A stretch of DNA of 64,000 nt from Massilia varians. GTDB lineage: Bacteria > Pseudomonadota > Gammaproteobacteria > Burkholderiales > Burkholderiaceae_D. Below the pieces are notes generated by a model. It had not been told where the DNA came from and did not search any database. It was given only the letters and a program-made list of their open reading frames with translations. The first letter of the stretch is position 1, and every line of letters begins with the position of its first letter. The position numbers and the translations under genes were made by a program. Below, piece by piece: positions 15,954-36,016 of the stretch. The stretch spans positions 124,001-188,000 of the forward strand of contig NZ_AP026966.1 in the NCBI RefSeq assembly GCF_027923905.1, written 5' to 3'.

Positions 15954-16280
15954 TGAGGTACGCTGATTTTTTCGGACACTCTTGTTTGGTAAAGTTCACC
16001 AACAGGAGCCTTTATGAAGACATTGAAGAAGACGTACACCCCGGAACTCAAGGAAGAAGCCGTGAAGCTGGTGCTGGCGCAGGGTTTGTCCATTGAGCAG
16101 GCAGCAGCACGAGTAAGTATCCCAAAAGGGACGCTGGCCAATTGGGTAGCAGCCGCCAAACGCGGGCCGGCCGCAACAGCAGCCCCTGGAAGCCGCTCTG
16201 TGGCCGAGCTGGAAGCGGAGAACGCGAAGCTGCGCAAGCAGCTAGCCCAGGCAGAGATGGAGCGGGACATCGTAAAAAAA

Positions 16281-17613
16281 GGTTCATCGCGTTTTGCCGG
16301 GAAACGCATCCTTGATTTTCAGGAAGAAGTAGGATGCATCCCGAAATCCGTAGGCCATGCGCTTGATGACTTTGATGCGGTTGTTGACGCCTTCCAGGAT
16401 CGATGAGTTCATCGGATAGATGGCCGAAGCCAGAATGCCGCGCCGGTACTTGGCCAGCCGTTTGGCAAACTGGATCAGCGGTGTGATATGGCTTTCCAAG
16501 GCGAGTTTGAGCCAAGCCTTCCATCGACGAGCACCTTCCCGGACCGATGGCGCATACCAGATCTCTTTCAATTCGGTCTTGAGCAGGTAGACCGTTGCCA
16601 GCGGCTGATTGGCGGCGAGCAGTTCTTCGAGCTTGACGGCCTGTTCGGCCTTGAGGTTGTCGCGGTTGCGTAGTAACAGCCAGCGGCTACGCTTGATGAC
16701 CTGGCGCGCTTTTGGTTCGGCCCGTAACGTATTGGCTTGATCGACGCGCACCCGGTCGACGACTTCGCGGCCGAAGCGGGCCACGACATGAAACAAATCG
16801 TAGACCACCTCCGCGTTTGGACATTGCTGACGCACTTCAAGGTCCATGGCCGTGTTCATATCCATGGCCACCGCCTCGATTCGCTGGCAGCCTTGCTCGC
16901 CCAGCAGCTCAAAGAATGGCCGGATCGCTTCCCGGCTGTTGCCTTCCCCAACCCACAAGACGCGCATACGCTCGGCATCCATGGCCACGGTAGCGTAGCG
17001 ATGGCCCTTGTGCAGGGCAAATTCGTCCATGACCAAGCGGCGTACGCCCACCGCCGAGAAGTCGCCGTGCAGCTGCTTTAGTCGCCGATGATCAATCTCT
17101 TTGATGGTATGCCAGTGCAGCCCGGTCAACCGGGCTATATGGGCTATGGGCAGCAACTGCGCCAGCGCCTCGACCCACAGACGCACGCGGTGCGTGATGC
17201 GCGCCCGGCGGTCGAGCCAAACAATGTGCTCGGCCACTCGTGCATTGCAGTGATGGCAGTCCAGCCGCCGTACCGGCACATCGAGCCAGACGCGCTTGTC
17301 CAGAACGTCGCGATCGCGCACCTTACGCCTTCGGCGCTCATGCACCAGGGCGCAAGGCTGGTGGCACGCTCCGCACACAGCATCCCTTGCCGGGCAGGTA
17401 TCGAGAACGATTAACAGTGATCCGTCTTCTTGTTCTTGGACGGTGTCGACAATATGGCCTTCCCAAAACGGGACAGACGACATAGCATTGAGCATGGCGG
17501 TGGTTTGATAGACTGATTTGTTTGGCGACTATCAATCTACCAACATCAGGCCACCGCCACCACCTCCCGATTAGATCGTCAACCCCGTCTTCCCCCATTC
17601 CCCGCGAAGAACC
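16281..17613 (-). mobile_element. ISL3-family insertion sequence nested in IS3
   Basis: 1333 bp, with imperfect terminal inverted repeats GGTTCATCGCG and GGTTCTTCGCG, flanked by an exact 8-bp target duplication TAAAAAAA (16273-16280 and 17614-17621). Eight base pairs is the known target duplication size of ISL3 elements. Confidence 0.94.
16284..17495 (-). CDS. ISL3-family transposase
   Basis: 403-aa DDE transposase. The N-terminal zinc-ribbon-like part has CGACHQPC and later CHHCNAR cysteine pairs, followed by a helix-turn-helix segment (HIARLTGLHWHTIKEID). The catalytic core begins with VMDEFALHKGHRYATV and continues with VAMDMNTAMDLEV. The C-terminal acidic residue is probably in SILEGVNNRIKVIKR. 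Length is normal for the family and the frame is intact, so it may be active. The stop codon lies three bases inside the element end. Confidence 0.93.
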   Translation of the reverse strand: MLNAMSSVPFWEGHIVDTVQEQEDGSLLIVLDTCPARDAVCGACHQPCALVHERRRRKVRDRDVLDKRVWLDVPVRRLDCHHCNARVAEHIVWLDRRARITHRVRLWVEALAQLLPIAHIARLTGLHWHTIKEIDHRRLKQLHGDFSAVGVRRLVMDEFALHKGHRYATVAMDAERMRVLWVGEGNSREAIRPFFELLGEQGCQRIEAVAMDMNTAMDLEVRQQCPNAEVVYDLFHVVARFGREVVDRVRVDQANTLRAEPKARQVIKRSRWLLLRNRDNLKAEQAVKLEELLAANQPLATVYLLKTELKEIWYAPSVREGARRWKAWLKLALESHITPLIQFAKRLAKYRRGILASAIYPMNSSILEGVNNRIKVIKRMAYGFRDASYFFLKIKDAFPGKTR

Positions 17614-17674
17614 TAAAAAAAGCGGCGGCGTACTTTGCGCAGGAGTCGCTGCCAAGTACGCGTGGATAAAGACA

Positions 17675-18535
17675 ATGCGACTCGATTTCCCTGGCTATCC
17701 TGTGAAGCTGATGTGCCAGGTATTGGACGTCTCGCGCAGCGGCTACTACAACTCGCTGCAGGCCAAGCCATCGACACGCGAGCAGGAAGACGCTCGGTTG
17801 AAAATCCTGATTACGGCAGTGCATCGGCAAACCCGAGAGACCTACGGGGTGCCTCGGATAAAGCACGAGCTTGCTGCACAGGGCCATGAAGTTGGTCGCG
17901 ACCGTGTGCGCCGACTTCGCCAGGAGCTCAATCTGCGCTGCAAACAACGGCGCAAATTCATCGCAACGACAAACTCGAATCACAACCTTCCCATCGCTGA
18001 GAACTTGCTGGAACAGCGGTTCGCGCCGAACAGGCCTGACGAAGTGTGGGTGACCGACATCACCTATATCTCCACTGCCGAAGGCTGGCTGTATCTTGCC
18101 GGCGTAAAGGACGTTTTTACCTGCGAGATCGTCGGCTACGCGATGGGCGAGCGCATGACGCAGGAGCTGACGACGCAGGCCTTGTGGCGCGCCGTGAGCC
18201 ACAAGCGGCCGGCGCCAGGGCTGATCCATCATTCGGACCGTGGAAGCCAATACTGCGCCCATGCCTACCAGGAGCTGGTGGCGCAGTTCGGCATGCGCGC
18301 GTCGATGTCGCGCCGCGGGAACTGCTATGACAACGCGCCGATGGAGAGCTTCTGGGGCACGCTGAAGAATGAGCTTGTTCATTATCGCCGCTATGCCACC
18401 CGTGCTGAGGCAAAGGCCTCGATTCAGGAATACATCGAAATTTTCTACAACCGACAGCGGCGCCATTCCCGCATCGGCTTTGTTCCGCCAGCGTTGTTCG
18501 CCGAATCCTTCAGCGAACAGCCGCAGGCGGCTTAA
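17675..18535 (+). CDS. IS3-family transposase OrfB (copy 1)
   Basis: 286-aa integrase-type catalytic subunit from ATG 17675. An N-terminal HTH_21-like region (VSRSGYY) precedes the rve core with DDE residues in VWVTDITY, HHSDRGSQY and PMESFWG. In an undisturbed element it is made as an OrfAB fusion by -1 slippage at an A7 run. Here that run is split by ISL3, so only independent translation is possible. The protein sequence is intact and almost identical to copy 2. Confidence 0.9.
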   Translation: MRLDFPGYPVKLMCQVLDVSRSGYYNSLQAKPSTREQEDARLKILITAVHRQTRETYGVPRIKHELAAQGHEVGRDRVRRLRQELNLRCKQRRKFIATTNSNHNLPIAENLLEQRFAPNRPDEVWVTDITYISTAEGWLYLAGVKDVFTCEIVGYAMGERMTQELTTQALWRAVSHKRPAPGLIHHSDRGSQYCAHAYQELVAQFGMRASMSRRGNCYDNAPMESFWGTLKNELVHYRRYATRAEAKASIQEYIEIFYNRQRRHSRIGFVPPALFAESFSEQPQAA

Positions 18536-18571
18536 GACGAGCGTGTCCGTTATTGACAGTACACCTCAATT

Positions 18572-18645
18572 CTGGGCATCATAGGCGTAGGTGCTCATCT
18601 GGTCGGCTGCCTCCTGTAGGGGTCGATTGCCTTCGGCACCTATAT
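18572..18645 (-). pseudogene. Remnant of a third Rhs core tip
   Basis: The minus-strand translation gives EGNRPLQEAADQMSTYAYDAQN, which aligns with [22 protein letters not shown] in the large Rhs protein (nucleotides near 25570-25635). It is cut off by the IS3 end at 18568. It shows that the toxin array once extended further and that the IS landed in it. Confidence 0.7.
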
Positions 18646-18654
18646 GAAACTTCA

Positions 18655-19290
18655 TCACAAAGGGTCGCCCCCTTCCGAGTCCTGCTTGATGTCGGTGGAA
18701 CTATTGACCCTCCAACGGACCTTGATTCCATCGGTCGTCCAGATGAAATGCAACCAAAGCATCTTGTCGGGTAGCTGATCCGACGGCGTGGTGGCGCGCG
18801 ACTTGGCGACCTCGTCTAATGCCCATGCAGGCACCTTTTCCGCCACCTTGACGCGCCCGGTCTTCATCGGCGCAGCCCGGTACACCTCTCGTACGTAGTC
18901 GCCCCAGGCCTCCTCGGTGGCGAACGACTCGCGCGGCTGCCCGGGGTATGGCAACTCCTGCCATGTGAACTCGATCCAGACTGGTAGGCCAAAAGTGCCT
19001 GGCGCGCCTCCCATCGTAGCACCGCCGTTCATAGGGTCATCAGAAGGCCCAAAGGAGCCTGCGTGAAGAAATGGCTGGCCGGCCTGGTCCACCGCGTTCC
19101 TGATCTGGATCCGGACGCCTGGCACCGTACTCGTGAAGTTCAACACGGCTCCTCCTGTTGGGGGCTCACCTCTCCACAGGCGAAAGCCCCCCAAAGCAAG
19201 GAGGAGCAGCCCGAGAATGGCGCCGACCATGAATAGCGCACGGGTGCGCGTCGAATGTTTGGTGTGGGCAGTATTCACTGGATATCTCAT
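18655..19290 (-). CDS. Membrane-anchored candidate immunity protein, second paralog
   Basis: 211-aa protein with a basic N terminus, one membrane segment (residues about 19-40, VGAILGLLLLALGGF) and a ~165-residue domain predicted outside the cytoplasm (GGAVLNFTSTVPG, then PVWIEFTWQELPYPG, FATEEAWGDYV, KMLWLHFIWTTDGI). I do not recognise the family. Its ATG overlaps the stop of the preceding Rhs tip by four bases (ATGA), and a paralog about two-thirds identical by eye follows the other Rhs tip at 21616. That placement is the usual one for the immunity gene of a polymorphic toxin. A periplasm-facing immunity protein fits a phospholipase tip that acts on the periplasmic face of membranes. Confidence 0.8.
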   Translation of the reverse strand: MRYPVNTAHTKHSTRTRALFMVGAILGLLLLALGGFRLWRGEPPTGGAVLNFTSTVPGVRIQIRNAVDQAGQPFLHAGSFGPSDDPMNGGATMGGAPGTFGLPVWIEFTWQELPYPGQPRESFATEEAWGDYVREVYRAAPMKTGRVKVAEKVPAWALDEVAKSRATTPSDQLPDKMLWLHFIWTTDGIKVRWRVNSSTDIKQDSEGGDPL

Positions 19291-20186
19291 TCGCAGAGAC
19301 GGGTTTGCGCAGGCTGCTGGAAGGCGATGCTAATACCTATTTTCTTGGTCCACTCACTGTATTTCGCCATGTCCACCATCCCGACTGCGGGAGAGCCGGG
19401 TTGACCGCACCAGCGGTTGTAGTAAAGGATGAGGGACTTTGTATCTGCAATGCTGTAGCCGCCGATTCGTGTGTTTTCCAGAGCTTGTACTTCTTTACCG
19501 TCCGTATAGACAATCTTCCGATTGTCGTAATGCGGCGCCAGCCTCGGCACTTGGATATGGTTGTTGCTGCTGTCGTGAAGGATGGGGAGTGTGACGATAT
19601 CCCATCCGGAATCCTTTACAGTCTGTTCAACGAACTTAATGCCCTGCTGTCTGGCCTGGTCCAGCATCCACATCAGCGCAACATCCGACAAGTCACCCGA
19701 GGCATAACCGCCGCCAACGTCCGAATGAGCCCCAACGAAGGCCTGCTCGATCCGGTTGGCTCGCGATGGCTGCTGCGAACCCAGGATCGAGCGCAAGTGA
19801 AAGCTCACCGGGTCGCCGCGGTATTCATTCAGGGCAACGGCATGCGCTGCATGGCGCACCGCTGTAGGAATCCGGAAGTCATACTTGTCGTCGTTGCCGT
19901 GCAGGTAGCCCAGATGCGAGACGGTGTCGAACAGACCCTCGAAGCGCAGGTTGAGACAGCGGGTTTTTCGACTCTTGTTGGATGTGTACTGCCCATTACG
20001 GATTTTGCCCACCAGCTGGTTCAGCCAGACCCGTGCCTCGGCCGCGCCGCGGCTGAAGCCGACGACATCGATGTCGATCAGGTCCGATTTGGTATCGCTG
20101 TCGATAAACTCGTCGAGGAACTTGAAGCCTAGCGCGACGCGCTGGTCGAAGCCGTCGCCGTTGGCCACATTGCCTTCATAGCTCAT
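19287..20186 (-). CDS. DUF2235 (Tle1-like) lipase domain, orphan Rhs tip
   Basis: 299-aa remaining open part of a displaced Rhs C-terminal tip. It carries the alpha/beta-hydrolase nucleophile elbow VGFSRGAAEA and the acid-bearing motif AHSDVGGGY, both characteristic of DUF2235/Tle1 phospholipases. Upstream, the same reading frame continues into Rhs core but is interrupted by a TAG stop around 20254. The intact copy has CAG at that place (KIYQAYD). The stretch before the first Met (20187-20250) includes part of the lipase fold (the FDGTGN strand is lost from this frame), so the domain is probably inactive. It retains the intact C terminus (KKIGISIAFQQPAQTRLCE) that the main Rhs gene has lost to IS256. 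Confidence 0.8.
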   Translation of the reverse strand: MSYEGNVANGDGFDQRVALGFKFLDEFIDSDTKSDLIDIDVVGFSRGAAEARVWLNQLVGKIRNGQYTSNKSRKTRCLNLRFEGLFDTVSHLGYLHGNDDKYDFRIPTAVRHAAHAVALNEYRGDPVSFHLRSILGSQQPSRANRIEQAFVGAHSDVGGGYASGDLSDVALMWMLDQARQQGIKFVEQTVKDSGWDIVTLPILHDSSNNHIQVPRLAPHYDNRKIVYTDGKEVQALENTRIGGYSIADTKSLILYYNRWCGQPGSPAVGMVDMAKYSEWTKKIGISIAFQQPAQTRLCE

Positions 20187-20252
20187 GTTGATGTCCGTGG
20201 TACCGATGCCGGTGATGTAGAACTTTCTCCCGTTAAGCTTCTGGTCGTAGGC

Positions 20253-21597
20253 CTAGTATATCTTCCGCACATTCGACAACGATGCCCCCGCCCCGGGATT
20301 GGCGCTATTGCCGGTGCCGTCGAAGGCAAACAGAATGAGGCCACTCGGGTCCACGTACTTCAGCGGGTTGCCGTCCACATAGGCATAACTGTTGACGCCG
20401 CCGTGCAGCCCGATCGGATCGGGCGAGAGATAACGCCCCAGCTCGGGGTCGTAATAGCGACGATCGTTGTAGTGCAGTCCGGTTTCAGTATCGAGATACT
20501 GCCCTGGCAGACGCAGGTTAAGCTCGAAGCCGCGCTGCGCGCTCAGGCTAGAAAGCTTGCCGTAGGGATGATATGCCGCGCGCCAGAGCAGCTTTCCTTC
20601 ACGGTCAGTAGCCGCCTCCACCGCACCCAGGTGATTGGTATGCAGATAGGCGGTTGCGTCCGGCCTCGAAATCCAGCCGGCGACTGCCGCCCCCAGGTCG
20701 GCCACGGCCTGGGCGAACGCCGAGCGCGGCTGCGCGACCAGGGCAGTATCATCGCAGTCGATCACCGCCACGACCTGATCGGCCAGGTACACGTACTGGC
20801 GGGCGATCGAGCCGTCGGCGGAGAGCTCCGCGCGCAGCTTGCGGTCTTCGTACAGGTAGTGGCGCAGCGTGCCGCCGCTTTCCTTGGCCACCCGCAGGCC
20901 CCGGTGGTCGTAGCGGTAACGCGCCAGGACCTTGTTCCCGGCACGCACCTCGCGTAGCTGGTACCGTGGCGCTGGCGACCAGGCGATCCTGGGCATCGTA
21001 GGCATAGCTACTGGTCCGGTCGGCGGCTTCCTGCAGGAGCAGCTTGCCTTCGGCATCCCACAGATAGCGATGATCCAGCAGGGCATCTCGATCACGCGCG
21101 TGTCCAAGCGCGCCCGGCAGTGCCGGCGCCGCCGCGAATCCATTGTTCGGGCCGGTGTGCAGACCCGCCGCGCGCGCACGCGCCGCGGCGGCCGGCCTGG
21201 CGCCCGACAGGACAGAAAGCGCCAGCGTCATGCCGGCAGCCGGCGCCACACGTGGCGGCGCGCGGTAGTCGACCCTGGCCAGCACCCCTTGCGCACTGCG
21301 CTGGTAGCGCGCACGCACCCCGTTGCCGTAGGCGGCGCTGCGCAAACCGACGATGTCGCGCTCCAGGTCCCTGACGATGACCTCGGGAGATTGCAGCCAG
21401 CGCAGCCAGGAGGTACGGATACGGTGACGCTCGAGCGACACGACCTGGCCCTGGCCGTTGCGCCGGTACTCGAGCATGCTGCCGTCGGGCAGGGACATGC
21501 CGGACAATCGACCGCTCGGGTCATAGGCATATTCGGTCAGGCTGGTGACGGCCTTGCTGCCGGGCGGCGACACCGTCACGGTCCTGGCGGTCATGTA
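20253..21597 (-). pseudogene. Orphan Rhs core fragment, frameshifted and stop-interrupted
   Basis: Nearly identical to the C-terminal part of the large Rhs protein (core with [16 protein letters not shown] and YVDPSGL, followed by [11 protein letters not shown]). It starts abruptly at about 21597 inside the repeat region. About 260 bp present in the large gene between the GTAGCTGG and ACCGTGGCGC words (25287-25545) are missing here near 20960, which shifts the reading frame. A TAG replaces CAG at the junction with the lipase domain. It has no N-terminal secretion region. Confidence 0.9.
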
Positions 21598-21615
21598 GTC
21601 GTCAGGCCGACAATT

Positions 21616-22239
21616 TCATATGGGGTCTCCACCTTCGGGAGAATTGCCCCCACGCTCGCTATTGTGGATTTTCCAACGCATTTTGATTCCCTCAGTTGTC
21701 CAGATGAAATGCAGCCACAGCATCTTGTCGGGCAGCTGATCCGGCGGCGTCGTTGCGCGCGATTTGGCGACCTCTTCGAGTGCCCATGCGGGCACCTTTT
21801 CGGCCACCGTGACGCGCGCTATCTTTAGCGGCGCCGCGCAGTATCGCTCGTTGACATAGGCATTCCAAGCTTCCTCAGTGGCGAACAACTCGCGTGGTTG
21901 CGCAGGGTACAGCAACTCCTGCCATTTGAACTCGATCCAAGTTGGCAATCCAAAAGTGTCCGGCGCGCTTCCCATTGTTGCTCCACCCTTCATTGGCTTG
22001 TCAGAGTGATGAAAGGAACCTGCATGTGCGAAGGGACGTCCGGCCTGGTCTCGAGCGCTACTGATTTCGATCCTCTTAGCCGGTATTGTGCTCGTGAAGT
22101 TCAGCACGGCCCCGCCTGTGGCGGGCTCGCCCTGCCACAGGCGGACGCCCCCCAAAACAAGGAGAGCTAACCCCAGAATGGCGCCGACTTTAAAAAGCGC
22201 GCGGGTGCGCGTTGAACGTTTAACGTGGCGATTCTCCAT
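21616..22239 (-). CDS. Membrane-anchored candidate immunity protein, first paralog
   Basis: 207-aa paralog of the protein at 18655-19290: basic start, one membrane segment (ALFKVGAILGLALLVLGGV), then the same outward-facing domain (PTWIEFKWQELLYPA, KMLWLHFIWTTEGIKMRWKI). It begins 7 bases after the original stop codon of the large Rhs gene (22247-22249), so it was co-transcribed with that toxin. Family unknown to me. The two paralogs differ most around residues 50-75 and at the C terminus, which might tune them to the slightly different lipase tips. Confidence 0.8.
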   Translation of the reverse strand: MENRHVKRSTRTRALFKVGAILGLALLVLGGVRLWQGEPATGGAVLNFTSTIPAKRIEISSARDQAGRPFAHAGSFHHSDKPMKGGATMGSAPDTFGLPTWIEFKWQELLYPAQPRELFATEEAWNAYVNERYCAAPLKIARVTVAEKVPAWALEEVAKSRATTPPDQLPDKMLWLHFIWTTEGIKMRWKIHNSERGGNSPEGGDPI

Positions 22240-22246
22240 TGGGTCC

Positions 22247-22307
22247 TCATTCGCAGATACGGGTTTGGACGGGTTGCTGGAAGGCGATGCTAATACCTAT
22301 TTTCTTG
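22247..22307 (-). pseudogene. Severed 3' end of the large rhs gene
   Basis: Encodes KKIGISIAFQQPVQTRICE and a TGA stop, the original C terminus of the Rhs lipase tip. It is cut from the gene body by the IS256 element. The word ATTTTCTTG at 22299-22307 is repeated at 23671-23679. Confidence 0.85.
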
Positions 22308-23670
22308 GACCTGTCAGAAATTCTGTGTGCGGGGCCAGAATTCGTAGTTAGGTAATTGCGTTCGTGAAGCGCTCGCCGAACATAATGGCGAACTGATTGG
22401 CAGCCTGTTTCCAGGTACGCTGCGGCATCTTCCAATCTTTCTCGATATTGCGCAAGGCCAGAAACAACAATTTGGTTGCTGCTTCGTCGCTGGGGAAGTG
22501 GCCGCGGTTCTTGACGATCTTTCGCAGGCGCATATGCAAGCTCTCGATGGCATTGGTCGTGTAGATGATGGTGCGCACTTCCGGCGGATAGGCGAAGAAG
22601 GGAATTACCTGCTGCCACTGGCGGCGCCACATCGCTGCCACCGTCGGAAATCTGGTGCCCCATGGCCCGGCCGCGAACGCGTCAAGCGCCGCTTCAGCCA
22701 AGTCAGCATTGGCAGCCTGGTAGACGGGCTTCAGGGCCGCCGCCAGCTCCTTGCGGTCCTTCCACGCTGCCAGCGTTGTCGAGTTGCGAATCAGGTGTAC
22801 GATGCAGGTCTGAATCTGCGCTTGCGGGTATACCGCCTCGATGGCCTCAGGGAAGCCGCGCAGGCCGTCGACGACGGCGATCAGGATGTCCTCCAGTCCT
22901 CGGTTCTTCAGTTCGTTGAAAACCTTCAGCCAAAACTTGGCTCCTTCCGTTTGCTCGATCCACAGGCCCAGCACCTCCTTGCGGCCATCGGCACGAATGC
23001 CCAAGGCCAGGTAGACGGCCTTGTTCTTGACGGTGCCTTCGTCCCGGATTTTCAGGCGCAGCGCGTCGAAATAGACGATCGGGTACATCGCTTCGAGTGG
23101 CCGCTGCTGCCATTGATTGACCTCTTCGAGAACCTCGTCGGTGATGGTCGAGATCAGGTCTGGCGAGACGTCGGTACCGTACAGCTCCAACAAATGCCCC
23201 TGGATTTCGCGCACGCTCATGCCGCGCGCGTACATGCTGATGACGTGATCGTCAAAGCCCGTCATCCGGCGCTGGTGCTTGGCCACCAGCTTGGGCTCGA
23301 AGCTCGACAGGCGATCACGTGGAATGTCCAGATGGAGTTCGCCGCCCGGTGTCAGCACCTTCTTCGGACTGCTGCCGTTACGGTGATTCTTGCTGCCTTC
23401 GCCCTCGCTGGCCAGGTGATGGCTCAGCTCGGCCGACAGCATGCGCTCGGCCAGCATCTTCTTGAGCTGTCCGGCCAGGCCAGCTTCACCGAGGATCGAT
23501 TCGGCGTCCTTGTTCTCGACCTGGGCGAGCAACTGGTCGATCAGCTCGACCGGGAATGGGTATGCGGCTTTCTGTTTCTTGGGCTTTTTGGTGGTCATCA
23601 CTTCGGTCATGGAACAGTCCTTTCGAGATTATTTCATGACCCCGTTCCACACAGAAATACTGACAGGCTC
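22308..23670 (-). mobile_element. IS256-family insertion sequence
   Basis: About 1363 bp. Inverted ends TGTCAGAAATTCTGTGTG and TGTCAGTATTTCTGTGTG are flanked by the direct repeat ATTTTCTTG (22299-22307 and 23671-23679), which fits the 8-9 bp duplications of IS256 elements. It interrupts the last codons of the large rhs gene. Confidence 0.92.
22348..23610 (-). CDS. IS256-family (Mutator) transposase
   Basis: 420-aa transposase. Catalytic residues are expected in IVYFDALRLKIRD (first Asp), VVDGLRGFPEAI (second Asp) and TNAIESLHMRLRK (Glu), all in intact context. The HTH-like N-terminal part contains GMSVREIQGHLLELYG. The frame is complete, so the element may be mobile. Confidence 0.95.
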   Translation of the reverse strand: MTEVMTTKKPKKQKAAYPFPVELIDQLLAQVENKDAESILGEAGLAGQLKKMLAERMLSAELSHHLASEGEGSKNHRNGSSPKKVLTPGGELHLDIPRDRLSSFEPKLVAKHQRRMTGFDDHVISMYARGMSVREIQGHLLELYGTDVSPDLISTITDEVLEEVNQWQQRPLEAMYPIVYFDALRLKIRDEGTVKNKAVYLALGIRADGRKEVLGLWIEQTEGAKFWLKVFNELKNRGLEDILIAVVDGLRGFPEAIEAVYPQAQIQTCIVHLIRNSTTLAAWKDRKELAAALKPVYQAANADLAEAALDAFAAGPWGTRFPTVAAMWRRQWQQVIPFFAYPPEVRTIIYTTNAIESLHMRLRKIVKNRGHFPSDEAATKLLFLALRNIEKDWKMPQRTWKQAANQFAIMFGERFTNAIT

Positions 23671-26600
23671 ATTTTCTTGGTCCACTCACTGTATTTCGCC
23701 ATGTCCACCAGCCCAACTGCGGGCGAGCCGGGTTGACCGCACCAGCGGTTGTAGTAACGGATGAGGGACTTTGTATCTGCAATGCTGTATCCGCCGACTC
23801 GTGTGTTCTCCAAGGCTTGCACTTCTTTACCATCCGTGTAAATAATCTTTCGATTGTCGTAATGCGGTGCCAGCCTCGGCACGTTGAGATGGTTGTTGCT
23901 GCTGTCGTGAAGGATGGGGAGGGTGACGGTCTTCCATCCCGCCTTCGTAATCAGGTCTTCATCGAACTTGATCCCCTGTTGCCGGGCTTGGTTCAGCATC
24001 CACATCAGCGCCACATCCGCCAGGTCGCCCGACTCATAGCCACCGCCAACGTCCGAATGGGCGCCAACGAAGGCTTGTTCGATCCGGTTGGCTCGCAATG
24101 GCTGCTGCGAACCCAGGATCGAGCGCAGGTGAAAGCTCACCGGGTCGCCGCGGTATTCATTCAGGGCAACGGCATGCGCTGTATGGCGCACCGCTGTAGG
24201 AATCCCGAAGTCATACTTGTCGTCGTTGCCGTGCAGGTAGCCTAGATGCGAGACGGTGTCGAACAGACCCTCGAAGCGCAGGTTGAGACAGCGGGTTTTT
24301 CGACTGTTGACGGATGTGTACTGGCCATTGCGCATTTTTCCCACCAGCTGGTTTAGCCAGACCCGTGCCTCGGCCGCGCCCCGGCTGAAAGCGACTACAT
24401 CAATGTCGATCAGGTCCGATTTGGTATCGCTGTCGATAAACTCGTCGAGGAACTTGAAGCCTAGCGCGACGCGCTGGTCGAAGCCGTCGCCGTTGGCCAC
24501 ATTGCCTTCATAGCTCATGTTGATGTCCGTGGTACCGATGCCAGTAATGTAGAACTTACTTCCATTCAGCTTCTCATCGTAGGCCTGGTATATCTTCCGC
24601 ACATTCGACAAAGACGCTCCCGACCCAGGATTAGCGCTATTGCCGGTGCCGTCGAAGGCAAACAGAATCAGCCCGCTCGGGTCCACGTACTTCAGCGGGT
24701 TGCCGTCCACGTAGGCATAACTGTTGACGCCGCCGTGCAGCCCGATCGGATCGGGCGAGAGATAACGCCCCAGCTCGGGGTCGTAATAGCGACGATCGTT
24801 GTAGTGCAGTCCGGTTTCAGTATCGAGATACTGCCCTGGCAGACGCAGGTTAAGCTCGAAGCCGCGCTGCGCGCTCAGGCTAGAAAGCTTGCCGTAGGGA
24901 TGATATGCCGCGCGCCAGAGCAGCTTTCCTTCACGGTCAGTAGCCGCCTCCACCGCACCCAGGTGATTGGTATGCAGATAGGCGGTTGTGTCCGGCCTTG
25001 AAAACCAGCCGGCGACTGCCGCCCCCAGGTCGGCCACGGCTTGGGCGAACGCCGAGCGCGGCTGCGCGACCAGGGTAGTGTCATCGCAGTCGATCACCGC
25101 CACGACCTGATCGGCCAGGTACACGTATTGGCGGGCGATCGAGCCGTCGGCGGAGAGCTCCGCGCGCAGCTTGCGGTCTTCGTACAGGTAGTGGCGCAGC
25201 GTGCCGCCGCTTTCCTTGGCCACCCGCAGGCCCCGGTGGTCGTAGCGGTAACGCGCCAGGACCTTGTTCCCGGCACGCACCTCGCGTAGCTGGCCGGCGG
25301 CGTCCCAGCGGTAGGTCCTCGTCCCGGCAGTAACAGGCTGGCCGGTCGGGTCGTACACGGGTGCCGTGGTCGCGGTATCGCCGAGCCAGCGCTGGCTGCC
25401 GGGCGCGTAGCGTGCCGCACGCGTGCCGGCCGTGAGTTCATCCTGGCTGTCGATGTCCTGCTGCGACAGCACGCGATTGCCAGCGCCATCATACAGGTAG
25501 CGGCTGACACTCATAGCCGGCAGCGTCTTGCCTACCTTGAGCACCGTGGCGCTGGCGACCAGGCGATCCTGGGCATCGTAGGCATAGCTACTGGTCCGGT
25601 CGGCGGCTTCCTGCAGGAGCAGGTTACCTTCGGCGTCCCACAGATAGCGATGATCCAGCAAGGCATCCCGATCACGCGGGTGTCCAAGCGCGCCCGGCAG
25701 TGTCGGCACCGCCGCGAATCCATTGTTCGGGCCGGTGTGCAGACCCGCCGCGCGCGCACGCGCCGCGGCGGCCGGCCTGGCGCCCGACAGGACAGAAAGC
25801 GCCAGTGTCATGCCGGCAGCCGGCGCCACACGTGGCGGCGCGCGGTAGTCGACCCTGGCCAGCACCCCTTGCGCACTGCGCTGGTAGCGCGCACGCACCC
25901 CGTTGCCGTAGGCGGCGCTGCGCAAACCGACGATGTCGCGCTCCAGGTCCCTGACGATGACCTCGGGAGATTGCAGCCAGCGCAGCCAGGAGGTACGGAT
26001 ACGGTGACGCTCGAGCGACACGACCTGGCCCTGGCCATTGCGCCGGTACTCGAGCATGCTGCCGTCGGGCAGGGACATGCCGGACAAGCGACCATTCGGG
26101 TCATAGGCATATTCGGTCAGGCTGGTGACGGCCTTGCCACCGGGCGACGACAGCGTCACGGTCCTGGTAGTAATACGCCCGGCGGCATCGTGGGTGTACT
26201 GTTCCTGCTGACCAGGATGGTCGATCCTGGTCAACCGGGAGCCCTTGTAAGTCCAGGTCGTCACGCTTTCCCGCTGACCTTTTGGCGCGCGCGGATCAGT
26301 CAGGGTCTGCCGGACGATACGCCCGGCCACGTCATACTCGTAGTTGGCCCAGTTGCCGTTCGCATCGGCGCTCTTCACCAACCGGTCGGCTTCGTCGTAG
26401 CGCCGCATAAGCATGCCGCGGTCGGCATTACCGGTGGCGACGATGCGCCCGAAATCGTCGATAAGCTGGTGTGTCGTCAAACCACCAGGCGTGGCGATGC
26501 GCGCGATCCGGCCCAGTGGATCACGTCCCAGGCGCAGCGTCGTGTCGTACAGGCCAGCTTGCGTCGTGTTGGCGGCTTCGGTTACCTGCGACAGCTGGCC

Positions 26601-28892
26601 TCTTTCGTCGTAGCGGAAATGCCGTTGGCGGCCCAGGGCATCGGTGACAACGCCGGGTAAGCCCATTGCATTCCAGTCGATGCGGCGCGTCCCGCTAGCG
26701 TCATCGGTCAGCGCAGTCAGGCGTCCGGTAGCGTCGTACTGGAAGCGCCGGCCTTGACGAAAACTCGCCGACATCACGCTCTCCGCCAGCAGCTTGCCCT
26801 CGGTATCGTAATGACGAATCGCCGCGATGCCGATGTGCGAGGCCACCGATGTCTGGCGCCCGGCGTTGTCATGGTCGAAGCGCAGGACAGGTCGGTAGCC
26901 ATTTCCAGCGTCTTCCCCAGTTTCGATCATGTTGCCCATTCCATCGTAGCGAAAGCCCAGCCCTATTCCGCCACGATCAATTGCAACGACTTGGTGACGG
27001 GCGTTGTACGCATAGGTGGATGCCTGGCCATTCGGTCCGACGACTCCAGCGATGCGGCCAGCCGCGTCGTAGCGCACCTGGCTGCGCATTCCACCGGGTA
27101 GGGTCATGGCCGTCACTGCGTTGCCCCGCGCATCCCATTCGAGTGCCGTGATATCGGCCGTTACGGGCGTGGCGCCTGGCCCGTTCGGAAGCGGGCCATC
27201 GATCGTGGTAAGCAGGCTGCGGCCGCTTACCAGCGTGTAGCCGTAGCGCGTGGTGCGGGAGAGGACTTGCGGCACTTTCTCCTCTCCGCTTGTCGGGGTC
27301 CATCCGGACTCGGTGATAGCAAGCGGCTGGCCGTGCGCATTGTACTGGTAGCGCGTCTGCGTCTCCAGGCCAGGAACAACGCTGGGGCGCGCAATCAAAT
27401 GGGGACGCCGGGCATCGCCAATGTACTCGTAACGCTCGATCCAACTAGATTGATGGGGCTTACCGTGACGGTAATCGGTCCGGCTAACCCGGGAGATTCG
27501 CCCCCCATGGTCATACTCCGTCGATATTCCCTCTAGCGGGGTTCCGCTGGGTGATAGGCGGATTGTTTCGATCAACCTGCCGATGTCGTCATAACGGTAC
27601 CGAACGTCGCTGTCGCCGCAGCTGGCGCATCCCGCACCCCGCACTTCCAGCAGCCTGTATTGCCCTGCCAAGATGATATGGCGGTAAACCGTTTTCTTTC
27701 CAAGGCTGTTGCTAACGACGGTCTGGCCGGCAGTACGGGTATCTAGGGTCACCTGTTCCACACCGGTACCCTCGACCAGGGATGCGGGTTGCAGTGGCTT
27801 ACCGTCGGGACCAGTCTTCAGGCGTGCCGGCAGTCCCCGAACCGTGAGGTTGCCTTTACCCTGATCGTCGTATCCATAGGTCGCGATACGACGGACGACT
27901 GGCTTGCCCGTCGTTCCCGGCTCCTCGACACTCATGCCAGTCAGTAGGGTCGGATGACGCGGGTCTTCGTAATAGTAACGCTGATGCCATTGGCCATCTG
28001 GACCTTTAACGCTTACCAGATTGGCCAGCACGTCCTTGCTCGAACCCAAGGCAGCTTTCGGCATCACACTTCCGTATTCATATGCGATTCGGCCTACGGG
28101 TGTGTCGATGAATTGCACGCCACGGAAGCGGTCACCCGCGCGCGCCAACTCGGCCGAGAGATAGTGCAGGCGCAGACTGCGTCCCTGCGGATCGGTGACT
28201 CCAAGCAACAAGCCTCTCGAATCGTATTGTAAGCTCAGGAATTCACCTGTGGGAACGGCAATCTGGAGCAGCTTGCCAGCGGCGTTGAAACTCAGGATGC
28301 GGCCGTCAGCCCAGAGCCAGCGGTATTCGTCGCCACGCGCAGTGCGCGTGATTCGCACCGTACCTTGGGACGGTTCCGCTGTGCTGCAAAGGCTGGGGTC
28401 ATTCGGATCGCGCGCGAACATCACGCGCGATCCATCTGCCTGCACGATCTGAATGGTCCGGCCTACTACATGCAGCTCTGTCTCGTAGCTCAGTTTCCAG
28501 CCACGGCCAACGATGCCATTCGTATGCGTCGGCCTGCTGTATGCGCTGTTGTAATGTCGTACCAGTTCCAGCCCGAGGACGCCAGGCAGCGGTGGCATGT
28601 CGACCTCGCGTTGGTACTTGTTGCCGCTGATAACATTGATTGGATTGCCGGCGCCAACGTCTACACCAGTGTTGCTTGCGCTAGTTGCCGGACCCGGCGC
28701 TCCACAAGTACCGCCACCGGGCTGCGGACCGCACGATCCTGGTCCACCCGGTCCAGGGGGCGGGGTAGTTCCTGGAGCGCAGCTCTGGATCGTGGGATCG
28801 CAACTGCCTGGCAGTGGGATCTGGGCCGGCGTCGATTTTGTGACAAATGCGCAGCAAAACATAACAATCATCAGGGCCGATTTGTTTTTCAT
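23634..28892 (-). CDS. Rhs/YD-repeat polymorphic toxin with DUF2235 lipase tip, C terminus altered by IS256
   Basis: 1752 aa. Residues 1-23 form a Sec-type signal peptide, followed by a Pro/Gly/Cys-rich linker (24-75) and an N-terminal Rhs segment (NPINVISGNKYQREVD). Many YD repeats (about 180-1340) and the Rhs core ([16 protein letters not shown], ending DPSGL near 1405) follow. The tip is a DUF2235 alpha/beta-hydrolase with FDGTGN, AFSRGAAEA (Ser near 1503) and AHSDVGGGY. The Rhs shell should encapsulate the tip, which by family would attack membrane phospholipids. The original gene ran to 22247; IS256 replaced the last ~17 residues with 12 of its own. The elbow here reads A-F-S-R-G, whereas the orphan tip has G-F-S-R-G. 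No VgrG, PAAR or T6SS gene is in the window, so the export route is open. Confidence 0.92.
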   Translation of the reverse strand: MKNKSALMIVMFCCAFVTKSTPAQIPLPGSCDPTIQSCAPGTTPPPGPGGPGSCGPQPGGGTCGAPGPATSASNTGVDVGAGNPINVISGNKYQREVDMPPLPGVLGLELVRHYNSAYSRPTHTNGIVGRGWKLSYETELHVVGRTIQIVQADGSRVMFARDPNDPSLCSTAEPSQGTVRITRTARGDEYRWLWADGRILSFNAAGKLLQIAVPTGEFLSLQYDSRGLLLGVTDPQGRSLRLHYLSAELARAGDRFRGVQFIDTPVGRIAYEYGSVMPKAALGSSKDVLANLVSVKGPDGQWHQRYYYEDPRHPTLLTGMSVEEPGTTGKPVVRRIATYGYDDQGKGNLTVRGLPARLKTGPDGKPLQPASLVEGTGVEQVTLDTRTAGQTVVSNSLGKKTVYRHIILAGQYRLLEVRGAGCASCGDSDVRYRYDDIGRLIETIRLSPSGTPLEGISTEYDHGGRISRVSRTDYRHGKPHQSSWIERYEYIGDARRPHLIARPSVVPGLETQTRYQYNAHGQPLAITESGWTPTSGEEKVPQVLSRTTRYGYTLVSGRSLLTTIDGPLPNGPGATPVTADITALEWDARGNAVTAMTLPGGMRSQVRYDAAGRIAGVVGPNGQASTYAYNARHQVVAIDRGGIGLGFRYDGMGNMIETGEDAGNGYRPVLRFDHDNAGRQTSVASHIGIAAIRHYDTEGKLLAESVMSASFRQGRRFQYDATGRLTALTDDASGTRRIDWNAMGLPGVVTDALGRQRHFRYDERGQLSQVTEAANTTQAGLYDTTLRLGRDPLGRIARIATPGGLTTHQLIDDFGRIVATGNADRGMLMRRYDEADRLVKSADANGNWANYEYDVAGRIVRQTLTDPRAPKGQRESVTTWTYKGSRLTRIDHPGQQEQYTHDAAGRITTRTVTLSSPGGKAVTSLTEYAYDPNGRLSGMSLPDGSMLEYRRNGQGQVVSLERHRIRTSWLRWLQSPEVIVRDLERDIVGLRSAAYGNGVRARYQRSAQGVLARVDYRAPPRVAPAAGMTLALSVLSGARPAAAARARAAGLHTGPNNGFAAVPTLPGALGHPRDRDALLDHRYLWDAEGNLLLQEAADRTSSYAYDAQDRLVASATVLKVGKTLPAMSVSRYLYDGAGNRVLSQQDIDSQDELTAGTRAARYAPGSQRWLGDTATTAPVYDPTGQPVTAGTRTYRWDAAGQLREVRAGNKVLARYRYDHRGLRVAKESGGTLRHYLYEDRKLRAELSADGSIARQYVYLADQVVAVIDCDDTTLVAQPRSAFAQAVADLGAAVAGWFSRPDTTAYLHTNHLGAVEAATDREGKLLWRAAYHPYGKLSSLSAQRGFELNLRLPGQYLDTETGLHYNDRRYYDPELGRYLSPDPIGLHGGVNSYAYVDGNPLKYVDPSGLILFAFDGTGNSANPGSGASLSNVRKIYQAYDEKLNGSKFYITGIGTTDINMSYEGNVANGDGFDQRVALGFKFLDEFIDSDTKSDLIDIDVVAFSRGAAEARVWLNQLVGKMRNGQYTSVNSRKTRCLNLRFEGLFDTVSHLGYLHGNDDKYDFGIPTAVRHTAHAVALNEYRGDPVSFHLRSILGSQQPLRANRIEQAFVGAHSDVGGGYESGDLADVALMWMLNQARQQGIKFDEDLITKAGWKTVTLPILHDSSNNHLNVPRLAPHYDNRKIIYTDGKEVQALENTRVGGYSIADTKSLIRYYNRWCGQPGSPAVGLVDMAKYSEWTKKMSLSVFLCGTGS

Positions 28893-28976: not shown

Positions 28977-30260
28977 CTAGGCAGACGGGCCTTCACAAAC
29001 TGGACAATCGGTTCCACTACATGGCCCACCTGGGTCAACTGGAGGTGAGGGTTTCGGTTGTGAAGGATGGCAACTGAGGGTTCCGCACTCCGGTGGCGGC
29101 GTATTGGCTACTGGCGGGTCTCCCGGGTCTGCTGGCTGGCCGCCGTTACCTGCACCGGGCAGGGACACTGGGTTGTCACTCTCGATTGGATGCGACTGCA
29201 TTTGCATTGTCACGTGAGTAACCACCGGGATACGCCCCGACTCCACCAGTTTGGTATGGAAAGAATCAGACTTCGGGTCCAGCCACTTCAGGTAGACCTT
29301 ATAAATATTCGACACAACCGGGACCTTCGGCATGTAACCATGCGTGATCCGTAGTTTTATAAGATTCGCGTCCTGCCGGTTCTGTCCTGAATTCGCTTTA
29401 ACCTCGTCCATCCCGGGGCTCAAAAACGGCAGGTTGCTGTTTCGGATAACCCGCCGGGATCCGGTCTTCAGTGCCGCCTGAAGGACAGGATCGTTCCAGT
29501 CGTCGAAGCTTTCTTTGGTCGGATTGACTAGCTCAATCCGCACGTTGCCCGCCAAATCGGCCTTGGCTTTGGCGAGGGACGCGGCAATCTCCGTCGCAGA
29601 CTGCCCACCGCCATACAGTGGAACCAAAGCGTTAGCAAAGGCAGTTTCTATCTTCTCCAGGCTCGCATTGCCCACACTACCTGCCCTTGCAGCCATGAAA
29701 CTCGCATGATTTATCTGATTCTTTGCGAAGAAGAGAAGACCATATTGCAAAATGGCCAAGCCCAGCAGCGTAATGAGAGGCCCGACGACGACAAACTCCG
29801 TCATCGCAGATCCGCGCTGGCCCTGGTGTTTAACTGGAGATCCCGACACCGGCCTTGATCTGCAAGGCACGTCGACCAACTGGCTTTCGCAGTCAATTGC
29901 AAACTTGTCGATACTTCCTGCGGCTAGCTCAAGCGTATGAACTTCGCCGGCTTTCAATCCGCGCCTAGGCGCCAGGACACTTGTTTTCCATGGCGCTAGC
30001 CCACGGACATATTTCAACACGCGGCCTTCGCTGTCGATATACACGACGTCGATGGGATAGCGCATGAAAAAACAGTGAACACTCGAGCATCTCGGGATCA
30101 GAAAGCCTAAGCCTTGAGGAAGCTGTGTAGAAAGCATGAGACCGCGGAATCGCTCCCATAGCCCACGGGCGGTGTGTAGTCTGATGGAGTGGCTGCCGGA
30201 GCGCGTATGCAATCTAGCCTCGTAATGGTTGGACAAATCCATGTCAGCTTGTATGGTCAT
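28977..30260 (-). CDS. DUF192 domain fused to a TadE-type pseudopilin
   Basis: 427 aa. Residues about 10-125 form a DUF192 domain (RFRGLMLS, CFFMRYPIDVVYID, AGEVHTLELAAGS). A TadE-like segment follows: QRGSAMTEFVVVGP with a hydrophobic helix (about 153-180), the hallmark of pseudopilins of the Tad pilus. A long outward domain ends in a Pro/Gly/Cys-rich tail. No separate start codon with a ribosome binding site precedes the TadE part except the internal Met of SAMTEF, so a true fusion is likely. The gene begins 6 bases after tadC and belongs to the damaged Tad operon. The DUF192 part would face the cytoplasm if the TadE helix keeps its usual orientation. Confidence 0.82.
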   Translation of the reverse strand: MTIQADMDLSNHYEARLHTRSGSHSIRLHTARGLWERFRGLMLSTQLPQGLGFLIPRCSSVHCFFMRYPIDVVYIDSEGRVLKYVRGLAPWKTSVLAPRRGLKAGEVHTLELAAGSIDKFAIDCESQLVDVPCRSRPVSGSPVKHQGQRGSAMTEFVVVGPLITLLGLAILQYGLLFFAKNQINHASFMAARAGSVGNASLEKIETAFANALVPLYGGGQSATEIAASLAKAKADLAGNVRIELVNPTKESFDDWNDPVLQAALKTGSRRVIRNSNLPFLSPGMDEVKANSGQNRQDANLIKLRITHGYMPKVPVVSNIYKVYLKWLDPKSDSFHTKLVESGRIPVVTHVTMQMQSHPIESDNPVSLPGAGNGGQPADPGDPPVANTPPPECGTLSCHPSQPKPSPPVDPGGPCSGTDCPVCEGPSA

Positions 30261-30266
30261 CTATTG

Positions 30267-31205
30267 CTACAGCCCAGAGTTCATGAATTTCATGACGATC
30301 GGGAAGAAAAGGACGATGAACGTACATGGGAAAATGAAGGCAATCAGGGGGAACAGCATCTTCACTGGCGCCTCCATCGCCAGCTTTTCCGCGCGAAGAA
30401 ATCGCTCGCTGCGCCGTTGGTCCGCCTGCGCCCGTAGCACCGGACCAAGGTTCATCCCCATTTTTTCTGCTTGGATGACGGCAGTGATGAAATTCGTGAC
30501 ATTTGGCTCCGCAAGTCGCTCAGCCATCGTGCGTAATGACTCCGCACGACTCTTCCCAGCACGAATGTCGCGCAAGACGCGCTGGAACTCATCGCGCAGC
30601 ACTCCTTTCGGTCCCTTCGCAACGGCCTGGCTCATCGCCCCCTGCATGTTCAGCCCAGCCTCGACACACAAGGTGATAATGTCCAGATAAAAGGGAATAG
30701 ACTTGAGCAGCTCGCTTTTCCTTCGGAGGATCAGGTCCCGTAGCCAGATGAACGGGTAGGCGTATCCGGATAAAAAGCCGACCGCACTAAACTGTAAATA
30801 CCCCATCAGGGAAATACCGGTACCGTCCTCGCTTGGAATGTCGAAAGTGCTCGTTCCCCACCAAGTCAAAATGGCAATTAACAAACCAGAAGTGATGGAA
30901 CCTGCTATAAATTGAGATGGAGATAACGAGTACTCAAGGCCCGCCTTGCGCAATCGCACAACCAAGGCATCATGCTGCTTCGCCGGCATATAGCCGGAAA
31001 TTGCATGACTAATCCAATGGATCGGAATCCAGGCAAGGCGAAATGCAAGCGGCGGCGCGTCCTTGTACTGGCGATCCTCTGGTGGGATCTCGGCTACATT
31101 TCGACTGACAATCCATGCTGCCAAGGCGACTGACATCCCTATCCCGAGGGCGAACAGCGCCACTACCCAACCGCTATGCTGAAGAAGTAATTGATGCATC
31201 GGCAA
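30267..31205 (-). CDS. tadC: Tad pilus inner-membrane platform protein TadC
   Basis: 312-aa type II secretion F-domain protein. Membrane segments lie near residues 12-32, about 100-155 and 275-305. The central cytoplasmic F domain has IPFYLDIITLCVEAGLNMQGAM and ADQRRSERFLRAEKLAMEAP, typical of TadC. With TadB it forms the platform that the TadA ATPase drives. The gene is intact, but the ATPase and most of TadB are absent here, so the pilus cannot be assembled from this locus alone. Confidence 0.9.
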   Translation of the reverse strand: MPMHQLLLQHSGWVVALFALGIGMSVALAAWIVSRNVAEIPPEDRQYKDAPPLAFRLAWIPIHWISHAISGYMPAKQHDALVVRLRKAGLEYSLSPSQFIAGSITSGLLIAILTWWGTSTFDIPSEDGTGISLMGYLQFSAVGFLSGYAYPFIWLRDLILRRKSELLKSIPFYLDIITLCVEAGLNMQGAMSQAVAKGPKGVLRDEFQRVLRDIRAGKSRAESLRTMAERLAEPNVTNFITAVIQAEKMGMNLGPVLRAQADQRRSERFLRAEKLAMEAPVKMLFPLIAFIFPCTFIVLFFPIVMKFMNSGL

Positions 31206-31236: not shown

Positions 31237-31511
31237 TCAAACGTCGATTGCGATAATTTTTCGAATTACAAAGATCCCCATGAACTCAAGGAACACGAGA
31301 GCAACCAGCGCCCCCCAGCCGATTCGAGTAGTCCACAGCAGCGCCATCGCCTCTGGTTCCATTCGCTGAAGTATCAATAGCAGCACAATGGGTAAAAAAC
31401 CGACGACCCAGGCTTGCAGCTTGCCTTGCGCCGTCAATGCGCGAATCTTTCCCTCCATCTGCAGCCGACTGCGGATAGTGTTGGAGGTACGCTCCAGTGT
31501 TTCGGCCAGAC
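31237..31511 (-). pseudogene. tadB: C-terminal fragment of tadB
   Basis: About 91 codons of the TadB C terminus (LAETLERTSNTIRSRLQMEG, then KIRALTAQGKLQAWVVG, two membrane helices, IAIDV end), cut exactly at the end of IS3 copy 2. The N-terminal two-thirds are nowhere in the window. Confidence 0.88.
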
Positions 31512-31571
31512 TGAGGTACGCTGATTTTTTCGGACACTCTTGTTTGGTAAAGTTCACCAACAGGAGCCTTT

Positions 31572-31886
31572 ATGAAGACATTGAAGAAGACGTACACCCC
31601 GGAACTCAAGGAAGAAGCCGTGAAGCTGGTGCTGGCGCAGGGTTTGTCCATTGAGCAGGCAGCAGCACGAGTAAGTATCCCAAAAGGGACGCTGGCCAAT
31701 TGGGTAGCAGCCGCCAAACGCGGGCCGGCCGCAACAGCAGCCCCTGGAAGCCGCTCTGTGGCCGAGCTGGAAGCGGAGAACGCGAAGCTGCGCAAGCAGC
31801 TAGCCCAGGCAGAGATGGAGCGGGACATCGTAAAAAAAGCGGCGGCGTACTTTGCGCAGGAGTCGCTGCCAAGTACGCGTGGATAA
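31572..31886 (+). CDS. IS3-family OrfA (HTH protein)
   Basis: 104-aa transposase helper with an N-terminal helix-turn-helix (LSIEQAAARVSIPKGTLANW) and a leucine-zipper-like C-terminal helix (VAELEAENAKLRKQLAQ). An A7 run at about 31831-31837, ahead of its stop, is a typical -1 slippage site producing the OrfAB transposase. Confidence 0.93.
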   Translation: MKTLKKTYTPELKEEAVKLVLAQGLSIEQAAARVSIPKGTLANWVAAAKRGPAATAAPGSRSVAELEAENAKLRKQLAQAEMERDIVKKAAAYFAQESLPSTRG

Positions 31887-31891
31887 AGACA

Positions 31892-32752: not shown

Positions 32753-32785
32753 GACGAGCGTGTCCGTTATTGACAGTACACCTCA

Positions 32786-33108
32786 GGCACCCCCCTGACG
32801 TGCCCTTGGGCATAGTCTAACCAAGACGAAACGCTCACCATCTGTGCTATTAGCACCTCGTTTGCGATCAATGCACGATTTGTGTAAGCAGAAAAATTCA
32901 GTGCTCGCGCGTGCATTACACCTGCGCTGTATGCCACAGCATCTGCCGTATTGACCAACTTCGTCTTTTCGCTAGAAAGTTGCGCAGTGTTAAAAAGAAA
33001 AAATAACGCTACGAGTCCTACGGTTAAGACGAATAACCCATAGATAAGCGCCTGCCCACGTTGGCGGGCAGGCCACTGGTGATTTGTTGACTTTGGGCTG
33101 ATGTGCAT
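32786..33108 (-). pseudogene. N-terminal fragment of a TadG-like pilus protein
   Basis: About 107 codons starting MHISPKSTNHQWPARQRGQA, with the hydrophobic segment LIYGLFVLTVGLVALFFLF. TadE/TadG-like proteins begin this way (QRGQALIY...). The frame runs directly into IS3 copy 2 (the last residues are IS-encoded). The remaining, normally much longer, outward part is missing. Confidence 0.82.

Positions 33109-33664: not shown

Positions 33665-36016
<2,352 letters not shown>

Follow-up and report, generated by a model that had tools for sequence, protein, structure and literature searches.

We analysed a window of 64,000 nt from Massilia varians, whose genome is one contig of 5.58 Mb, and describe here a gene system on its minus strand in which an Rhs polymorphic toxin gene lies behind remnants of a Tad (Flp) pilus operon. 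In the order of transcription, the system comprises a prepilin gene, the start of tadG, an IS3-family insertion sequence (IS), the end of tadB, tadC, a gene encoding a DUF192 domain fused to a TadE-type minor pilin, and rhs. Further downstream come an IS256-family element lodged in the rhs end, immunity candidate 1, a second Rhs cassette, immunity candidate 2, a 70-bp piece of Rhs core and a split IS3 copy. The first-pass annotation of this DNA had recognised the Rhs genes and their membrane-protein neighbours and had overlooked the adjacent tadC and DUF192-TadE genes (28977-31205), which were found with Pfam.

Results

The rhs open reading frame (ORF) encodes a Sec-type signal, a Pro/Gly/Cys linker, DUF6531, YD repeats and an Rhs core that extends to about 24669. 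The domains of Rhs polymorphic toxins (PF20148, PF05593, PF03527 and TIGR03696) were all detected in it with Pfam and NCBIfam. A Tle1-like tip region follows (about 23671-24668), while the final codons and the stop (23634-23670) derive from IS256. The ORF ends in IS sequence because the IS256 element inserted between two copies of ATTTTCTTGG; the rhs end was split off and now adjoins immunity candidate 1 (21616-22239). Hence, the protein initially described as a full Rhs does have the ORF, the Sec-type signal and the Tle1-like tip, but it is not intact, as the end of its tip has been cut off. Similarly, the membrane protein said to follow it does adjoin the displaced rhs end, although the literal next ORF is the IS256 transposase.

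The second cassette duplicates the Rhs end, with 94% and 97% identity over 1625 and 625 bp, and is a pseudogene: about 250 bp of core are gone, and its tip is interrupted by a stop codon after 27 residues. The description of a displaced, broken tip of the same lipase family proved accurate (ORF 19287-20186 matches PF09994), and the membrane proteins at 21616-22239 and 18655-19290 are paralogs as proposed, with 73% identity. What had been taken for a third tip remnant (18569-18638) is 70 bp with 79% identity to 20986-21055, that is, Rhs core rather than tip. Thus, the idea of a functional array that includes a third tip is not supported, since neither toxin copy is intact and the third remnant consists of core.

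Both tips belong to the family of PF09994 (DUF2235), with 90.7 bits (1.3e-25) for the rhs ORF and 80.3 bits (2e-22) for the second tip at a cut-off of 27. The second tip also matches the solved Tle1-like proteins 9j3f (2.8e-8), 6sjl and 4o5p, and it was aligned to 9j3f across the Ser/Asp/His motif regions GFSRG, FDTV and HSDVGGGY. With regard to the large membrane-anchoring D2-D4 part of Tle1, the tips are about 340 amino acids long, versus 884 in the 4o5p chain. A Tle1 profile built from relatives was contaminated with YD repeats and left unused; tip calls rest on the other comparisons.

The Tad/Flp genes left in the window are the pilin gene, part of tadG, the tadB end, tadC and the DUF192-TadE gene only. 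In the closest relative, G280, a near-identical prepilin gene occupies the same place as 33148-33462 does here. Where the window has its IS3 element, G280 carries the remainder of tadG, three ORFs that match no Pfam family, another Flp-like gene, the genes for RcpC, RcpA and FHA-TadA, and the start of tadB. The rhs-immunity pair of G280 is intact, but its TadA gene is interrupted by an IS. No close RcpA was found elsewhere in the M. varians genome, where the best match has 35% identity and covers part of the protein. Near G000:C1:456000 there is another Tad locus, which includes a Flp gene and could serve in trans.

In relatives, where gene limits are ORF calls, the linkage of rhs to the DUF192-TadE gene is conserved. 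When 392 genomes of the family were searched with the DUF192-TadE protein, 40 of them yielded a total of 48 distinct places scoring 180 bits or more. Of these places, 46 were covered by one locus each and that of G320 by two loci; the second place of G086 was left out. Rhs was the gene next after DUF192-TadE in 37 of the 46 loci; it was not next in seven, and two lay at a contig edge. When G320 is counted, Rhs adjoins TadE in 38 of 45 informative loci, from 10 genera. Moreover, the signal-type N-terminus of Rhs (at least 100 bits) occurs in 44 of the 392 genomes, including all 40 with a strong TadE (Fisher 1.6e-50, a value that ignores relatedness and uses cut-offs chosen after the lists had been seen). 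As a control, we assembled 21 weaker TadE loci, 17 from a search of 369 genomes of the class (G575 skipped) and four from the family: five were fused to Rhs, two had Rhs next, ten had none and four lay at an edge.

The operon upstream of Rhs is best displayed in G334, where Pfam identified a TadG-like protein, RcpC, the RcpA N-terminal domain, an FHA-T2SSE ATPase, two T2SSF proteins, DUF192-TadE and Rhs-Tle1; the Flp-like protein was below the Pfam cut-off. Using phmmer, the same parts were recovered in G320, G364, G358, G267, G015 and G078, fragmented where loci end. A Tad/Flp operon with pilin, RcpC, RcpA, TadA/B/C and TadE/G is present in G334, G280 (with TadA interrupted), G320, G364, G358 and G267. 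The union of FHA and T2SSE in one protein was seen in the relatives only (in G334 by Pfam, in many others by similarity).

In addition, a TadE domain and an Rhs core share a single stop-free ORF at five loci from outside the family, which represent four genera: L157 and L158 (both from one genus), L159, L163 and L169, of which L157 and L169 are partial. All three fusions scanned with Pfam contained TadE, DUF6531 and Rhs, and two of the three contained Tle1. One of the five fusions lies in a Tad operon (G427; L159 with L212), which comprises TadG, Flp-like, RcpC, RcpA, FHA-TadA, TadB and TadC genes, then the fusion and a lipoprotein-like gene. A search of the phylum with a TadE-Rhs query gave some match in 30 of 398 genomes and no further clear fusion.

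As for the Rhs proteins themselves, 38 of 52 starts passed a crude test for a Sec-type signal. The 14 that failed include five fusions, one start cut by the locus end, seven with a hydrophobic stretch by eye and one unclear case. Every one of the 45 separate Rhs starts from linked loci carries two or more Cys within the 45 residues that precede the core. The TadE tails beside Rhs (28977-30260; L037, L107 and L124) are Pro/Cys-rich, or longer and OmpA-like by eye. A disulfide tether joining Cys-rich TadE tails to the linker of Rhs is purely speculative, and many TadE tails look OmpA-like instead. Two Rhs genes stand behind one TadE in L098, L102, L103 and L108, and those of L103 have unrelated tips (Tle1-like and DUF6765-type).

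Related cores carry unrelated C-terminal tips. No tip match was found in 279 of 419 pairs of cores aligned over 1000 amino acids, and BLAST sorted 45 tips into seven clusters (17, 14, 6, 4, 2, 1 and 1 members, with the two singletons and one pair coming from one genome). Pfam, applied to one or two tips per cluster, named Tle1, DUF6765, DUF6883 and TreTu, leaving three clusters without match over the cut-off. Within about 60 nt of the Rhs ORF, the next gene product looked secreted, lipoprotein-like or membrane-bound by eye in 31 of 39 cases; in the other eight, five products had no obvious signal, no gene was found in two, and the window's own next gene encodes a transposase. That the neighbouring protein neutralises the toxic tip is suggested by adjacency and conservation.

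Regarding the two membrane proteins of the window, the first-pass annotation did not recognise their family, and the hidden Markov model (HMM) check of 18655-19290 and 21616-22239 likewise found no Pfam family at E up to 0.1. Among 21 aligned family members searched at E up to 10, Pfam gave DUF6750 in two (best 0.0035) and Alphavirus glycoprotein J in one (0.1). The membrane proteins had no NCBIfam or PADLOC match, one PHROG at 0.14 and a best E of 0.62 against solved structures. Even a distant link to DUF3304 was not supported, given that none of the 21 members matched it at E 10 and hhalign comparisons with 14 DUF3304 proteins from relatives gave probabilities of 0.5 and 0.7%. The M. varians genome has two DUF3304 genes of its own, far from the window (G000:C1:2246890-2247177 and 5216155-5216403).

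The family has a match in 16 of the 392 genomes, and 14 of these are supported by the family profile; the matches in G298 and G162 were excluded because the profile gave them no support, despite phmmer values of 3e-6 and 6e-5. A Tle1-like tip is present at the locus in 11 of the 14 (G000, G280, G334, G320, G078, G015, G364, G358, G367, G381 and G168), with the tip alone visible at the contig start in G367. Of the three exceptions, G267 has a family member with an Rhs of another tip, while in G223 and G248 neither Rhs nor a Tle1-like tip occurs in the 20 kb read. Homologs spread widely away from any Rhs or DUF2235 neighbour, which would speak against a toxin/immunity pairing, were accordingly not seen. 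The pairing is further substantiated by intact neighbours: in G280 the Tle1-tipped rhs lies 7 nt from the homologous membrane gene with no IS between, and in G334 and G320 the two genes overlap by 4 nt. Tandem copies of the family gene occur, with four in G334 and as many as six both in G320, where they form two groups, and in G381. Altogether, these data make a putative immunity role of this membrane-protein family well supported.

A pattern scan of species genomes gave ten loci, three of them new: L049 and L055 in Aquabacterium, with Tle1, and L054, near a contig end, with no Tle1 in view. A weak family member adjoins Tle1 in G031. At L039:7906-9072, a protein of this family has two tandem domains in one ORF. 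A different lipoprotein-like gene precedes the family member in G364 and G358, and in G373 a lipoprotein-like gene comes after the Tle1 tip, with no member of this family. Therefore, more than one family of immunity proteins accompanies Tle1 tips. The proposal that the membrane proteins face outward and that the target is periplasmic fits the lipobox-like Cys that 15 of the 21 aligned homologs show by eye; in the window pair, the N-terminus forms a plain membrane helix.

The dN/dS ratio (nonsynonymous to synonymous substitutions) is 0.21 between candidates 1 and 2 and 0.13 to 0.21 when the G280 copy is included. Both candidates are intact and apparently constrained. The tips have a similar range (0.10 to 0.22), so that dN/dS alone is no proof of selection after the break.

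The coordinates of the features are given in Table 1. The IS3 name of the element at 31512-32785 comes from the NCBIfam match of its second copy (15954-18568), and the tadB fragment was assigned by position and comparison with the tadB of L033 rather than by a profile search of its own. Beside the second IS3 group, part of the tex gene is repeated in diverged form (15041-15711 versus 33797-34513, 73-81% identical), which suggests a rearrangement around tex. Elsewhere in the window, two ORFs of about 1570 amino acids each overlap on opposite strands (2456-7222).

Table 1. Features of the tad-rhs locus in the Massilia varians window, in order of transcription of the minus strand.
Feature	Coordinates	Strand	Basis
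Flp-like prepilin gene, motif GMTEYIIIVALIAV, apparently intact	33148-33462	-	sequence, ORF with prepilin motif
TadG-like remnant (gene start; remainder gone)	32770-33135	-	phmmer with G280 TadG, 2e-62
IS3-family element, in place of the stretch from tadG end to tadB start of G280	31512-32785	+	blastn to second copy
tadB-like gene end	31237-31511	-	ORF 31237-31560, position, comparison with L033 tadB
tadC-like gene, T2SSF domain	30267-31205	-	PF00482, 2.7e-19
DUF192 fused to TadE-type minor pilin, Pro/Gly/Cys-rich tail	28977-30260	-	PF02643, 1.3e-14; PF07811, 4.8e-11
rhs ORF, 1752 amino acids	23634-28892	-	ORF list, Pfam, NCBIfam, signal test
IS256-family element (transposase 22348-23610), flanked by ATTTTCTTGG repeats	22309-23670	-	Pfam, NCBIfam, sequence
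rhs last codons, displaced by IS256	22247-22308	-	ORF list; homology 22308/19348
Immunity candidate 1, 207 amino acids, N-terminal membrane helix	21616-22239	-	ORF, homologs
Second Rhs-core-tip cassette, pseudogene	19287-21587	-	ORF list, blastn; tip ORF 19287-20186 with PF09994
Immunity candidate 2, 211 amino acids, paralog of candidate 1	18655-19290	-	ORF, identity, dN/dS
Third Rhs core remnant, 70 bp	18569-18638	-	blastn, 79% to 20986-21055
Second IS3 copy (15954-16281 and 17614-18568), split by ISL3-family element (transposase 16284-17495)	15954-18568		

Discussion

In this study, gene content, gene order, conservation, fusions, co-occurrence and breaks were read directly from the genomes. 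On this basis, we propose, with a probability of about 0.6, that the locus represents what is left, after decay, of the end of a Tad-pilus operon, and that the final genes of this operon would code for an Rhs polymorphic toxin together with its immunity protein, the toxin being borne by the pilus. The middle of the tad operon is gone and both toxins are broken, whereas both immunity genes are intact; hence, the strain is probably disarmed yet still immune.

The export route, the display at the pilus tip, the delivery on contact, the enzyme activity and the immunity function are predictions from these genomic patterns. In relatives with a working system, an Rhs shell with a variable toxic tip would reach the periplasm by its own Sec signal. 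There, the shell would associate with the TadE-type minor pilin encoded upstream, to which it is fused in some genera, and the complex would be carried through the RcpA secretin on the Tad (type IVc) pilus, driven by the FHA-TadA ATPase. On contact, the tip would be released into the envelope of the neighbour, where a Tle1-like phospholipase may attack membranes from the periplasm; Tle1 of Pseudomonas aeruginosa is toxic when acting from the periplasmic side (PMC13133936, excerpt). The lipoprotein or membrane-anchored protein encoded downstream would protect the producer and its kin in that same compartment. On a broader scale, the odds seem to us about even that this is a distinct contact weapon, in which the minor pilin at a Tad tip bears, by fusion or as its partner, an Rhs cocoon and delivers an exchangeable, largely envelope-acting toxin into adjacent bacteria. 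Such a weapon would be frequent in this bacterial family and would take the form of TadE-Rhs fusions elsewhere in the class.

Several observations weigh against this proposal. The M. varians strain itself is without most of the Tad machine. Seven of the 45 informative TadE loci have no adjoining Rhs downstream, two of them (L119 and L121) having a same-strand Rhs upstream, and the ten control loci without Rhs indicate that Tad operons do not need it. FHA-TadA was rejected as a marker of the Rhs type because it also occurs in Tad operons without Rhs. For G446 and G475, no Tad operon was seen around the fusion in a 21 kb contig and in about 59 kb read, respectively, the latter showing a TadA match of 1e-11 only. 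Moreover, the partners at L107, L109, L112, L131 and L162 lack an obvious signal, so not all of them fit a periplasmic target, and the test for Sec-type signals was crude.

It could be argued that the Rhs protein is a surface-displayed toxin of the WapA or contact-dependent inhibition (CDI) kind, exported by Sec, whose anchoring or release would follow an unrelated route, with the tad genes co-regulated or serving adhesion. The Sec-type signal that separate Rhs genes usually have (38 of 52 starts) agrees with this, as do the signal-bearing, T6SS-independent (T6SS, type VI secretion system) Rhs4 and Rhs5 of Myxococcus, which are presumed to lie on the surface (PMC10433427, excerpt). Nevertheless, the fixed place of Rhs behind TadE, the fusions and the genome-wide co-occurrence exceed what co-regulation would give, and we regard this explanation as rather unlikely. 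Less likely still is that the Rhs protein acts as a pilus-tip adhesin or a colonisation enzyme and that the downstream proteins are accessory. The pilus linkage would suit such a role, and a phospholipase is able to act on any membrane, but the downstream proteins vary with the tip family, the other tips include the TreTu toxin domain, and arrays of four to six copies, with intact copies beside broken toxins, are typical of immunity.

Finally, an ordinary T6SS effector that came to lie near tad genes by chance appears very improbable. Tips of the PF09994 family are typical of T6SS effectors (PMC3482391, excerpt), and the T6SS gene tssB is present in 16 of 20 genomes tested: the M. varians genome, at G000:C1:2459894, and 15 of the 19 others. 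However, no PAAR or VgrG-type N-terminal Pfam domain was found in the Rhs protein, which has a Sec-type signal instead, and TssB was not found in G373, G015, G033 and G097. Since the TadE-Rhs arrangement is present in the first three of these, the T6SS is unlikely as its general exporter. The first-pass annotation had stated that no T6SS parts were nearby, which holds for the window ORFs scanned (part of all window ORFs), although the genome does carry TssB. Its suggestion of an export different from that of classical T6SS Rhs proteins gains support and becomes specific as membership in a Tad-pilus operon.

The system proposed here has relatives among known weapons. The Kil pilus of Myxococcus xanthus is a Tad-like machine for contact killing with an FHA-fused ATPase, and its toxin is described as undiscovered (PMC8460266, excerpt); its TadE/F/G-like minor pilins have been proposed to form exchangeable, variable tips (PMC12075869, excerpt). 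Our system resembles Kil in its Tad-type machine, FHA-fused ATPase, TadE-type minor pilins and predicted killing on contact. It differs in that an Rhs toxin and an immunity gene end the operon, whereas Kil is without Rhs and works with a needleless type III secretion system (excerpts of the Kil papers). Indeed, the word rhs does not occur in the main texts of PMC8460266 and PMC12075869, and Rhs and Kil are discussed as two distinct systems in a review (PMC10433427, excerpt). With T6SS Rhs effectors, our system shares the Rhs core, the variable C-terminal tip and the downstream immunity gene, but it has a signal peptide in place of a PAAR or VgrG-type N-terminus, and Tad rather than T6SS genes lie beside it. 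WapA and Rhs4/Rhs5 of Myxococcus likewise combine a Sec-type signal, a large Rhs and a variable tip, and no Tad link is mentioned for them in the excerpt of PMC10433427.

Like Tle1-Tli1 of P. aeruginosa, the pair described here has a PF09994 catalytic domain, a predicted periplasmic action and lipoprotein immunity, but Tle1 is delivered by the T6SS via VgrG and an adaptor, and Tli1 has DUF3304 (PMC13133936, excerpt). The toxin domain family is also that of the Tox-ABhydrolase-1 (DUF2235) polymorphic toxins, which were mainly linked to the T6SS in their survey; the terms Tad, TadE and Flp have no hits in the first 300,000 characters of that text (PMC3482391). Among the papers that searches of the openly licensed PubMed Central (PMC) literature returned, no title or abstract start reports a link between Rhs and Tad pili, which is weak evidence of absence, and the titles and abstract starts returned on Sec-dependent Rhs and on Massilia Rhs hold nothing on a Tad link.

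The membrane proteins of this locus represent a candidate immunity family for Tle1-like phospholipases, distinct from DUF3304 by sequence. For signal-bearing, T6SS-independent Rhs toxins of Gram-negative bacteria, a CDI-like delivery has only been presumed (PMC10433427, excerpt). The conserved tad-rhs-immunity operon and the TadE-Rhs fusions link this presumed delivery of Rhs with the missing toxin of Kil (PMC10433427 and PMC8460266, excerpts), and the question of tad and rhs thereby becomes testable in cultured soil bacteria.

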